Assembly: GCA_029261575.1 (NCBI GenBank)
Contig: JAJDBD010000085.1
Location: forward strand, 1 to 64,000
Origin: Nitrospinaceae bacterium
GTDB taxonomy: Bacteria; Nitrospinota; Nitrospinia; Nitrospinales; JACRGP01
Reading direction: 5' to 3'
Length of the DNA: 64,000 bases
This document shows, piece by piece, positions 18,835-30,967 of the stretch (positions are counted from its first letter, which is position 1; every line of letters begins with the position of its first letter). The notes beneath the pieces were generated by a model, which was given only the letters and a program-made list of their open reading frames with translations, had not been told where the DNA came from and made no database searches. The position numbers and the translations under genes were made by a program.

Positions 18835-19356
18835 TCAGGGTGTAAATTCGGATTTTTTCAAGAATTCTCTAAAAATCACCTTAAATGAAGAGGTGAAAAT
18901 ATCGGGCCGACGGGTTTTGGTTTCCATGATTTCCGCAATGGACCAGAAGCGTCCTTCGCTGATTTCTTCTGGATGGCAAACAGGGGTTTTGTCCGTTCGA
19001 CTGGTAAAAACAGAAACATGCTCCATATGGGTTTCAGGCCCGGCGCTCACCTTGAATAAAAACTCCAGTTCGCCGGAAATCCCCAACTCTTCCAGCATCT
19101 CCCTATGAGCGCAAGTTATATAGTCCTCCCCGGCGTCCACATGCCCCGAAACGGAACTGTCCCATAAGCCGGGATTTTCGTCTTTAGATTCGGAACGTTT
19201 TTGGAGGAATAATTCATTTTTTGAGTTGAGGACGAAAATGTGAACCGAGCGATGAAACCAGGATTTTTCATGAACCTCGCGTCGGGTGGCCTTGCCGATC
19301 ACCTGGTCATTTTCGTCCACGAGGTCGAAAATTTCTTCGTCGGGTTTTTGGGGCAT
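18835..19356 (-). CDS. Nudix hydrolase, IPP-isomerase-like branch
   Basis: About 173 residues with a perfect Nudix box at residues 71-93: G-x5-E-x7-REMLEELGI, binding the catalytic divalent metal. The flanking blocks (FDLVDENDQVIG, SWFHRSVHIFVLN, LFLQKRSESKDENPGLWDSSVSG) match the YfcD/isopentenyl-diphosphate-isomerase-like Nudix group, which typically acts on nucleotide-type or prenyl diphosphates. The substrate is not predictable. I start at ATG 19356; the track start at 19431 runs into the upstream gene. It follows the HPr-fusion gene by eight bases. Confidence 0.9.
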   Translation of the reverse strand: MPQKPDEEIFDLVDENDQVIGKATRREVHEKSWFHRSVHIFVLNSKNELFLQKRSESKDENPGLWDSSVSGHVDAGEDYITCAHREMLEELGISGELEFLFKVSAGPETHMEHVSVFTSRTDKTPVCHPEEISEGRFWSIAEIMETKTRRPDIFTSSFKVIFREFLKKSEFTP

Positions 19357-19364
19357 GAAAATTT

Positions 19365-20699
19365 TTAACTGGGGGAATTGCCCTGATTTCTGAGATAGGA
19401 CAATTCGCGAGGAATTTTTTTGTCCTCGCAATAATTGTGTTTTGCCAGGATCTTCAAATCGTCGAGAATTCTTCTGTCGCCTTCAAACACCACCGTTTGG
19501 TATCCCTTGTCCGCAACGGCCCCTCCGGCCTGCAACAAACTCATCACCGATTTGGCGCTGAATTTTTCGTCGTCCACCCACAAAAAAGCTTCTCCCTCGT
19601 GTTGCCTCACGATCAACGAAATATAGGTGCTGGGCCGGGCGTGGAATCCCAAGGGGTCCGGAACGGGCAGTTCGTATCGCACGGTTTTCACCAGACTCTT
19701 CAAACATTCCTCGCTGATTTTCTCGCCGCAACGAATGAATTGCAGAGCGTAATAAAATCCGAAGTTAACAATTTTGCTCAGGAGTTCGTTTTTATCCACC
19801 AGCTTGGCAATTTTGCGTTTGCACTCCCCCGTTCTTATCTCATCTTCGTGCCTTTCATAAAAATGCGTCAGCCATAAAACCAGCTCCAGCAAATGCAGGG
19901 GAAGGGAGATATAGCCGCGCAAATTATTCAATCGGGGATACTTTTGTTCCAGGCCGGTATTTTTAACATAAGTGTCGTAATCGGATTGAACGCTATGAAC
20001 CATATTTTGATACAAGCGCGCTCTCTTTTCGTCAATTTTGGCGGGAACTAAACTTTTCAGCGTATCCCAGTCCTGGGTTCTCTCAATCTTGGCCTGGGAC
20101 ATCATGGCGGCCAGTTTCTGATATTTTTGACAAATATCGAGGACCCGCTCCGCTTCGTCCTTGACCTGGTCCTCTTCAATGTTTTTAGGCAATCGCCGAA
20201 AGGCTTCCAATTCCGGAAAAATATCCAAAGAATCATTATCCGATAAAATCAGAAGACCGTTTTCTTTTCCAACCCTGGCGGCTTCCTCGAACAGTTTGAC
20301 AATGGATTGGTTTAAAAACTGCAGGGCGTCTTTGGCGTCGGAGAAAAAACTGCTTTCAAACTCCACCGATTCGCTCAGGTTATAGAATGGGTACCTATCA
20401 AGAAGATGCTTTAAATAAAAGGCGGAAAGGGAGAGGTTTCTGATCGAGGCGATAAATTCGGTGAACGCGTACCAGGTTTTATTTTCGCGGGCGCCGTGTT
20501 CGTCCAAAAAACTTTCGAAGTCGTGCGAATTTTGAACCAGACTTGAATAGTCCTTTCGGGTAATCGTCTGCTTTTTTTCGAGCCTCAATAAAAAATGATT
20601 GAAGGCGTAAAAGAAGGACCCGCAAACTTCCTGGGCCAAAGGAAGGAATTCTTCTTCCTGAACTATCTGGCTTAGCGATTTAGGTTCATCGGCGTCCAT
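19365..20699 (-). CDS. Large helical protein with a C-terminal HPr-like phosphocarrier domain
   Basis: Of 444 residues, the first 340 are helical, acidic and unrecognised. Residues about 343-425 read as an HPr fold: DPLGFHARPSTYISLIV carries the phosphorylatable His353 in the GxHARP motif, and SAKSVMSLLQAGGAV carries Ser384, matching the HPr Ser46 region. The His-Ser spacing is 31 residues, exactly as between His15 and Ser46 of free HPr. The following VADKGYQTVVFEG and DDLKIL match the HPr C-terminus. No EI, HprK or EII gene is seen in the window. A regulatory phosphocarrier or phosphate-sensing role is inferred. Confidence 0.85.
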   Translation of the reverse strand: MDADEPKSLSQIVQEEEFLPLAQEVCGSFFYAFNHFLLRLEKKQTITRKDYSSLVQNSHDFESFLDEHGARENKTWYAFTEFIASIRNLSLSAFYLKHLLDRYPFYNLSESVEFESSFFSDAKDALQFLNQSIVKLFEEAARVGKENGLLILSDNDSLDIFPELEAFRRLPKNIEEDQVKDEAERVLDICQKYQKLAAMMSQAKIERTQDWDTLKSLVPAKIDEKRARLYQNMVHSVQSDYDTYVKNTGLEQKYPRLNNLRGYISLPLHLLELVLWLTHFYERHEDEIRTGECKRKIAKLVDKNELLSKIVNFGFYYALQFIRCGEKISEECLKSLVKTVRYELPVPDPLGFHARPSTYISLIVRQHEGEAFLWVDDEKFSAKSVMSLLQAGGAVADKGYQTVVFEGDRRILDDLKILAKHNYCEDKKIPRELSYLRNQGNSPS

Positions 20700-20746: not shown

Positions 20747-21298
20747 TCAATTTAAGGCGCCCGCGAGAAAAAGTTTTTTTGGAAGATATTTTTTCCAAGC
20801 CTCGACATGCGAAGGAGAGTCTGAAGAAATTTGAAAAGGATACAATTGGTAATCGGGCTTGAACGGTTTCCTGACCAGGTTCATATCGATCTCCTGCAAA
20901 CTTCGGTCGCCTTTTCTAAGGTTACAAGGCTTGCAGGCCACCACCACGTTAACCCAGTTGGTCTTGCCGCCGCGGGATTTTGGCAGGATATGATCCACGG
21001 TCATCAAACGCGAATTGTCGCCGCAATACTGGCAGGTATAATTGTCCCGGCGCAAAATATTTTTCTTACTGAAGGAGATCCCTTTACGGCGTTTGCGCCG
21101 CACCATTTTAAGGGTTCGAATCACGATGGGAAGCCGATACGCTGTGTTGGGGGTTCTCACAAAACAGCCGTCCAGCTCCAGGCTCTCGGCGCGACCGGTC
21201 AGCACCATGACGATGGCTCGTTTGGCGTTGCAAAACTGGAGCGGCTCGTAGGAATAATTGAGAACCAGTATTTTTAAAGAGTCCAAATTAACGGTCAT
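20747..21298 (-). CDS. HNH endonuclease family protein
   Basis: A 183-residue cytoplasmic protein. The C-terminal half has the HNH core with structural zinc cysteines: RRDNYTCQYCG (Cys89/Cys92), MTVDHILPKSRGGKTNWVN with His103 and Asn117, then ACKPCNLRKGDR (Cys122/Cys125). The N-terminal part (ILVLNYSYEPLQFCNAKRAIVMVLTG) is the conserved extension of a widespread chromosomal HNH family whose target is not established. There are no signs of an intron or mobile element around it, so I regard it as a resident gene. Confidence 0.92.
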   Translation of the reverse strand: MTVNLDSLKILVLNYSYEPLQFCNAKRAIVMVLTGRAESLELDGCFVRTPNTAYRLPIVIRTLKMVRRKRRKGISFSKKNILRRDNYTCQYCGDNSRLMTVDHILPKSRGGKTNWVNVVVACKPCNLRKGDRSLQEIDMNLVRKPFKPDYQLYPFQISSDSPSHVEAWKKYLPKKLFLAGALN

Positions 21299-29101: not shown

Positions 29102-30967
29102 TCATTTCTTCTCGGGAAAAAGTTTTTCCAGCCGGGCGCGGCACCGGGAATCCCTGGACAACGCCGTCATTAATTTTTCATTGACGTGAAAATTTGGGAT
29201 GATGATTTTGTTTAAATAATGCATGAAGGCGGCAGAACAGCTTTTAACATCGTGAAATTCGTTGTAGACGGACAGGATGTTTGTCATGTTGACGACGCTC
29301 ACCGCGTCTTTTTTTTCATAGCCCACAAATAACTGCATGGCCAGATCGTAAAACAACTGGCAAAGCTCGTCCAAAGCCCCCTTGAGGAAAATAAACTTGT
29401 TAACGTTTTCTGCCAGAGAGGCGTGGCCAGAATTTAAAACCGTCAAATTCTTTTTGGCCGCTTCCAGCCGGGGCGTAATTTCCTTCCATATTTCCGGATT
29501 CCGTAGACGTTTTTCCAGCTTGTCGCGAGTCACTTTCTCGGAAATCGTATTTTGGAAATTGGCTAAAATCTGGGCCGCCAGTTTGACCCTTTCCGGATAG
29601 GATTTTCGTTGGTTTTCCTCGATTTCCTTATCGCAATTTTTCATCAACCCCAAAAAGGCTTTTTTATCGACAGGCTGGTCCAACTGGACTTTATTGGTGA
29701 ATTGGCCTATTTGCTGAAACAGAATTTGCCGGGTTTCATGGGGATACCAAAAATTAATTTCCTGAACGACTATATTGATTCTCTCCAAAATATTCCGCCC
29801 ATAACTTTTTTCCAGGTGAGGGGTTATGTGCAGGGTGATATCGTCCGCGTCTTTTTCCAAGACTGCGACGTTGAAATCTCCTTTGGAGATTTTTTCCACA
29901 ACAAAATCTATTCGACGGAAAGCGATGGTTTTCTCGTCCATATGCTTTTTTAATTCATTCAGCAATTCATCAATTTTATCTTTTTCATTGGCGAGCCTGG
30001 CTTCCAAAGCCTCGCGCATACGATTAAATTCCACAAGGTTGTAAAAAATCAGGAGTTTTTGCGATCTCCCAAAATCGTCAAAAAGTTCCTTGGCTTTTTT
30101 ATACTCCTTCCGGTAGGAGTATTTCCTGCCGACCACTTTAATCATCGATCCAAGAAGCGTATTAAAATAAAAAATATCATTGGCCCTGGAAATGCGGGCA
30201 TATTCGTCCATGGTTAAACTGGGAATCAACGCCTCGATATCGGGTTCGTGACGTTTTTCAATTAAAAGTGGATGAATGGCGGCGCCAATTTCCTTGAGGC
30301 ATTGGCTGATGAGCCTGTAATCTTCGGTGTGATTTTCATAAAACTGGTACCTTGAAAACAGCTTGTTTTCGGTTCTCAACTGGTTGTAACCGGAAACATT
30401 TCCCTCGTCGCCCTCGTAGCCGAATAAAAACTCGTGAAAGGAAATTTCATACTCCCTGAACTTCGCTAAAAGCTTTTCCAACTCGGGCATGATAGAAACG
30501 GCGACGTTGTCAACCCTTCCATAATGATTTTCCAGAAACTCAATTTCATGCTGAATGTTTGGAAAAATAAAATTTATGAGGCCCGCAACGGTTTCCAAAC
30601 TTTTAAAAATTTCCTGTTTATATAAATCCAGTTTGGTGGCATATTGTTCTTCCGCCATTGCGGCAATTTCGTTCTTTGTTTTTTGAATCCAGCCGTCGAT
30701 TTTAAGAAGCGTTTCCAAACGTTCCTGAAATATTTTATCGTCGGGTTTGAATTTTTCGGGATAGCTTTTTATGATTACAGGAATGGATAAGACTTCTTTT
30801 CGACAAGTTTCCACCCTGGATAAAAGCCGGGATTTTTCTTCTTCGGGGGCGCGATGGTCGGATTCAATGGAATCGGATTCCTTGATTTTTTCCAACAGCA
30901 AACCAAACTGGTTTTCCAGTGCGGTGAAGGCTTCTTCAAACTGAGTGATTTTATCCGCGTCGATCAT
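29102..30967 (-). CDS. Unknown large helical cytoplasmic protein, 621 residues
   Basis: Not recognised. No signal peptide or membrane helix. Almost all helix-forming sequence with Glu/Lys/Leu heptad character (FEEAFTALENQFGLLLEKIKE, MREALEARLANEKDKIDELL) and scattered aromatic residues; no nucleotide-binding or catalytic motif seen. It resembles large scaffolding or response proteins in composition only. It converges with the DUF5682-like gene (20-base gap), so it is not in that operon. Confidence 0.8.
   Translation of the reverse strand: MIDADKITQFEEAFTALENQFGLLLEKIKESDSIESDHRAPEEEKSRLLSRVETCRKEVLSIPVIIKSYPEKFKPDDKIFQERLETLLKIDGWIQKTKNEIAAMAEEQYATKLDLYKQEIFKSLETVAGLINFIFPNIQHEIEFLENHYGRVDNVAVSIMPELEKLLAKFREYEISFHEFLFGYEGDEGNVSGYNQLRTENKLFSRYQFYENHTEDYRLISQCLKEIGAAIHPLLIEKRHEPDIEALIPSLTMDEYARISRANDIFYFNTLLGSMIKVVGRKYSYRKEYKKAKELFDDFGRSQKLLIFYNLVEFNRMREALEARLANEKDKIDELLNELKKHMDEKTIAFRRIDFVVEKISKGDFNVAVLEKDADDITLHITPHLEKSYGRNILERINIVVQEINFWYPHETRQILFQQIGQFTNKVQLDQPVDKKAFLGLMKNCDKEIEENQRKSYPERVKLAAQILANFQNTISEKVTRDKLEKRLRNPEIWKEITPRLEAAKKNLTVLNSGHASLAENVNKFIFLKGALDELCQLFYDLAMQLFVGYEKKDAVSVVNMTNILSVYNEFHDVKSCSAAFMHYLNKIIIPNFHVNEKLMTALSRDSRCRARLEKLFPEKK

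Follow-up and report, generated by a model that had tools for sequence, protein, structure and literature searches.

An HPr domain fused to an undescribed helical domain: the probable phosphocarrier of a PTS-Ntr-like relay in Nitrospinota

HPr has been studied in great depth. The fusion protein described here shares with HPr (ptsH) and with the NPr (ptsO) of PTS-Ntr the HPr fold, the His15-X-Arg17-Pro active site and the Ser46 position, as well as EI and PtsN in the same genome and an rpoN-linked cluster for these partners. It differs from both in that HPr is here the C-terminal part of a 444-aa protein with a conserved tail, encoded outside the rpoN cluster. HPr also occurs within the larger multiphosphoryl transfer proteins (FPr/FruB, DhaM and HPr-EI fusions), which join it to other PTS domains, either IIA or EI (PMC2405797), whereas the partner domain in our fusion is no recognised PTS domain, and HPr is the one domain recognised in the whole protein. 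The words “fusion” and “fused” are absent, by word search, from a 2026 review of PTS-Ntr (PMC13104625), and no paper on the PTS of Nitrospina or nitrite oxidisers was found in the literature searched. In the fusions described in that literature HPr is joined to other PTS parts; here it is tied to a conserved, undescribed domain, throughout Nitrospinota and in some Planctomycetota, and in Nitrospinota this fusion has become, so far as can be judged from the assemblies, the only HPr. Nitrospinota is the phylum of marine nitrite oxidisers. The fusion thus offers a concrete way into regulation in nitrite oxidisers and defines a new domain family.

We drew on 77 Nitrospinota and 392 Planctomycetota genomes, the two phyla covered by deep searches; other phyla were covered by a peptide-pattern scan alone, which detects close relatives only. 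Most of these genomes are incomplete MAGs, including that of the window (the whole 64,000-nucleotide stretch of DNA analysed), a MAG that is 87% complete, and the absences reported below are therefore provisional.

The fusion protein and its HPr domain

The fusion gene runs along the minus strand of the window from 20699 to 19365 in 444 codons (Table 1); the original prediction had these limits right, and the strand is to be read as minus, the plus strand being interrupted there by stops. One relative in the peptide-pattern scan is 83% identical over nearly the full length, and about 50 more lie at 48-63% identity.

Table 1. Features of the fusion gene and its immediate neighbours, in window coordinates.
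Feature	Positions	Strand	Basis
Fusion protein, 444 aa (MDADEPKSL...): N-terminal all-helical domain, HPr and conserved C-terminal tail	19365..20699	-	
N-terminal domain, residues 1-341 (ordered ~13-338)	19677..20699	-	AF2 models, conservation
HPr domain, residues 339-420	19440..19685	-	PF00381/TIGR01003; PDB profile and fold matches
His353 codon, equivalent of HPr His15 (EI phosphorylation site)	19641..19643	-	98/98 homologues
Ser384 codon, equivalent of HPr Ser46	19548..19550	-	89/98 homologues; 40/40 Nitrospinota
C-terminal tail, residues 421-444, past the HPr fold; conserved E425, P430, L433, Y435, L436	19368..19439	-	
Nudix hydrolase (IDI/YfcD-like), next gene downstream, likely start 19356	18835..19356	-	neighbour in 46/54 Nitrospinota loci
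HNH-domain protein, next gene upstream, 47 nt away	20747..21298	-	neighbour in 45/54 Nitrospinota loci

Taken alone, the window protein matches PF00381 at E=1.2e-4 (22.5 bits, under the Pfam cut-off of 23) and TIGR01003 at E=1.4e-6, likewise below cut-off. PF00381 is nevertheless matched by every aligned homologue of the fusion, both in a set of 26 (26/26) and in a two-phylum alignment of 31 (31/31), and the family profile finds solved HPr, Crh and NPr chains in the PDB with E-values down to 1.7e-12. In the AlphaFold2 model of the fusion (mean pLDDT 86) the C-terminal domain has HPr and NPr as its top Foldseek matches, at probability 1.00 and with modest E-values from 0.045 up. Residues 339-420 are a genuine HPr domain, an assignment made secure by the family-wide profile match despite the marginal score of the single sequence. 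The original prediction of an HPr domain joined to a large helical domain of unknown kind is borne out, and its HPr match holds under profile search. Homology thus extends across the HPr fold, and the active-site histidine is followed two residues on by arginine.

His353, Arg355 and Pro356 are invariant in 98 of 98 homologues (40 Nitrospinota and 58 Planctomycetota rows). The 31 residues that had been counted between His353 (GFHARP) and Ser384 (AKSVMSL) are indeed the spacing of His15 and Ser46 in HPr. Both sites had been called intact, which is true of the histidine throughout and of the serine in Nitrospinota (40/40); in Planctomycetota the serine is kept in 49 of 58 rows, with T, A, Q or F in its place in some. 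In one Planctomycetota subclade (L142-L147, L149, L153 and L156, a single clade in the tree) about 70 residues are inserted within HPr after the Ser384 position.

The invariance of Ser384 in the 40 Nitrospinota rows would suit dual phosphorylation at His353 and Ser384 by an HprK-type kinase, as in the carbon control of Firmicutes. We consider this highly improbable, given the substitutions in Planctomycetota and the search for the kinase: a true HprK was found neither in the window's genome nor among the Nitrospinota matches examined. Weak HprK matches occur in thirteen Nitrospinota genomes, and those examined, which cover the P-loop region only, belong to HprK-related kinase B (L091, tested with TIGR04355, and the similar sequences L092, L094 and L096) or, by sequence, to MiaA (L098). 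Phosphorylation of Ser384 by HprK is therefore unlikely, and the residue probably does not serve as a regulatory phosphosite. Serine is also kept at this position in E. coli HPr. The hprK gene is absent from E. coli (PMC13104625). In several Nitrospinota (L091, L092, L094 and L096) the gene for HprK-related kinase B adjoins an ATP-grasp-like gene.

A sole HPr alongside EI and PtsN

A profile search with the N-terminal domain recovers the architecture of N-terminal domain, HPr and tail in 62 of 77 Nitrospinota genomes (29 of the 31 best assemblies) and in 79 of 392 Planctomycetota genomes. HPr follows the N-terminal domain in every fetched Planctomycetota locus with the 3' part of the gene recovered, and among genes so recovered in both phyla we saw no N-terminal domain without HPr. 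In an unrooted tree the Nitrospinota and Planctomycetota copies are split by one branch (SH-aLRT 99), so that no recent exchange between the two phyla is seen; no homologues of the fusion were found on plasmids.

The window's genome yielded one HPr domain, that of the fusion. Of the 62 Nitrospinota genomes in which HPr was matched, 58, among them the single-contig genomes G009, G047 and G057, have the fusion as the only HPr found; the other four (G072 and G074-G076), all of one family, have an additional ordinary HPr. In Planctomycetota, a strong match to an ordinary HPr coexists in 74 of the 79 fusion genomes. The fusion there is thus usually an additional HPr and may act in the relay only as a branch or a sink. 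Planctomycetota HPr matches often fall in open frames of 670-720 aa (G450, G231, G438, G376 and others), in several of which an EI match adjoins HPr in-frame, that is, HPr-EI fusions. Three Nitrospinota genomes (G067, G070 and G027) have EI and PtsN with no HPr domain found, which may reflect incomplete assembly or a relay able to work without HPr.

EI and HprK were both looked for in the window's genome; the first was found, along with PtsN, giving the fused carrier its partners, and a true HprK was not. Across Nitrospinota, EI is present in 71 and PtsN in 70 of 77 genomes, and each in all 31 best assemblies; the PtsN-like IIA scores above the TIGR00848 IIA cut-off and below the nitro_reg_IIA equivalog cut-off. 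In the window's genome these genes form the cluster rpoN-hpf-ptsN-ptsI-metK, which contains no HPr gene. In one relative that has a free HPr (G074) the order reads rpoN-hpf-ptsN-IIA-Man-HPr-ptsI-metK. Free HPr is absent from the rpoN-ptsI cluster in G000, G009, G047 and G073, of which the last three also have no IIA-Man-like gene there; in G068, G070, G001 and G002 the IIA-Man-like gene is kept in a cluster without HPr (gene names in these relatives are our reading of the sequences). The simplest reading of these arrangements would be that free HPr was lost from the cluster once the fusion could serve. At 591 aa, with TIGR01417 matched over residues 2-565, the EI of the window's genome has no room for an N-terminal GAF domain. 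As PTS-Ntr is marked by EI and PtsN in the same genome and by an EI-Ntr with such a GAF domain, and the last is not seen here, we term the relay PTS-Ntr-like rather than EI-Ntr proper.

We propose that the fusion is probably the phosphocarrier (HPr/NPr) of this regulatory PTS-Ntr-like relay, its N-terminal domain being a signalling module coupled to the relay. Phosphate would pass from PEP to EI (ptsI), then to His353 of the fused HPr and on to PtsN (IIA-Ntr), while the conformation or ligand state of the N-terminal domain and the phosphorylation of His353 would most likely affect each other, which would make the phosphocarrier both relay and reporter. We infer this phosphotransfer, the relay to PtsN and the coupling between domains from features observed in the sequences: HPr homology, an invariant active site, a sole HPr found in nearly all Nitrospinota searched, EI and PtsN encoded in a cluster that lacks HPr, and a conserved fused architecture. 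That HPr persists only as the C-terminal part of a larger protein in nearly all Nitrospinota genomes searched suggests a differently wired relay in this phylum.

Alternatively, HPr could receive phosphate from EI as an input only, with an activity or binding function of the N-terminal domain as the output and PtsN left unserved. The Planctomycetota fusions that coexist with free HPr fit this phospho-sensor or effector, since a free HPr at hand would let the family have some conserved role other than relay; the conserved His, Asp, Glu and Arg residues of the N-terminal domain and the conserved tail past HPr, whose five residues (Table 1) are kept in both phyla, fit it too. Nearly all Nitrospinota, however, have no other HPr found that could serve their conserved PtsN, and we think this alternative distinctly unlikely.

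The N-terminal domain and the gene neighbourhood

The N-terminal domain of ~340 residues is a new, previously undescribed domain family tied to HPr. Neither Pfam nor NCBIfam contains a family that matches it, and comparison with the PDB gave no credible match by sequence and none by fold. The original prediction that it has no recognised relatives therefore stands for described families, sequences and folds, but not beyond them: homologues occur in two phyla, with HPr behind in each gene whose 3' part is available. The AF2 models (pLDDT 86) predict two four-helix bundles (residues 15-146 and 182-336) separated by a disordered loop, a grouping read from helix order within the model's helix limits, not from coordinates. 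Conserved in both phyla are the polar residues E62, D66, N73, H98, H235, Q238, D242, R261, S265, H269, H279, E282, R283 and H284; A70 and the motif H279-FYER-HED are further conserved features. The conserved polar residues would be compatible with a sensor or with an enzyme.

A relationship to the polyphosphate-binding CHAD domain (PDB 6qva), likewise built of helical bundles with conserved histidines, was considered from a weak Foldseek match to the full model only (E=0.21, prob 0.69). It was rejected, as 6qva is not among the listed matches of the N-terminal domain modelled alone and the members scanned have no CHAD Pfam match. An internal duplication of the bundles was also set aside: profile-profile comparison finds the register seen by eye (H98xxDR against H279xxER) at a probability below 1%, which is not significant. 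Elsewhere in the window (29102-30967, minus strand), a 621-aa protein also seems all-helical and has no NCBIfam match.

As to what the domain does, we tentatively suggest that it is a new input or output domain on the phylum's sole HPr, which would place sensing or output on the phosphocarrier and not on EI (through GAF) or on the terminal IIA. A special form of the phosphocarrier proposal, overlapping it, would make the N-terminal domain the relay's ligand sensor, so that the input that enters through the GAF domain of Proteobacterial EI-Ntr would enter at the HPr step instead. The GAF domain of E. coli PtsP senses glutamine and alpha-ketoglutarate (PMC13104625), and the EI of the window's genome is without one; yet many EI proteins without GAF have no such replacement, and the domain has neither a related fold found nor a known ligand, which makes this form rather doubtful.

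The original prediction pointed to the adjoining Nudix hydrolase as a possible partner. The Nudix gene immediately follows the fusion in 46 of 54 Nitrospinota loci, and in the window it probably starts 9 nt beyond the fusion's stop codon. This linkage, however, is conserved within Nitrospinota only, where it is part of a co-directional block of at least eight genes of unrelated function (VOC/dioxygenase-like, FAD oxidase, HNH, fusion, Nudix, CvpA, aminotransferase, CoaE and FliL-like, names that are partly our reading of the sequences), and no Nudix homologue was found near the fusion in Planctomycetota. The adjacency was thus confirmed, and a functional partnership appears improbable. With no directly adjoining partner common to both phyla, gene context does not name the output of the fusion.

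The commonest neighbour found in Planctomycetota is a convergent metallophosphoesterase, with matches in 34 loci; in about half of the loci of that phylum, L113, L122 and L139 among them, its gene is the next one downstream of the fusion gene. In two Planctomycetota a homologue of the window's HNH gene lies some 6.5 kb downstream of the fusion (L053, 9680-10285; L054, 7004-7612).
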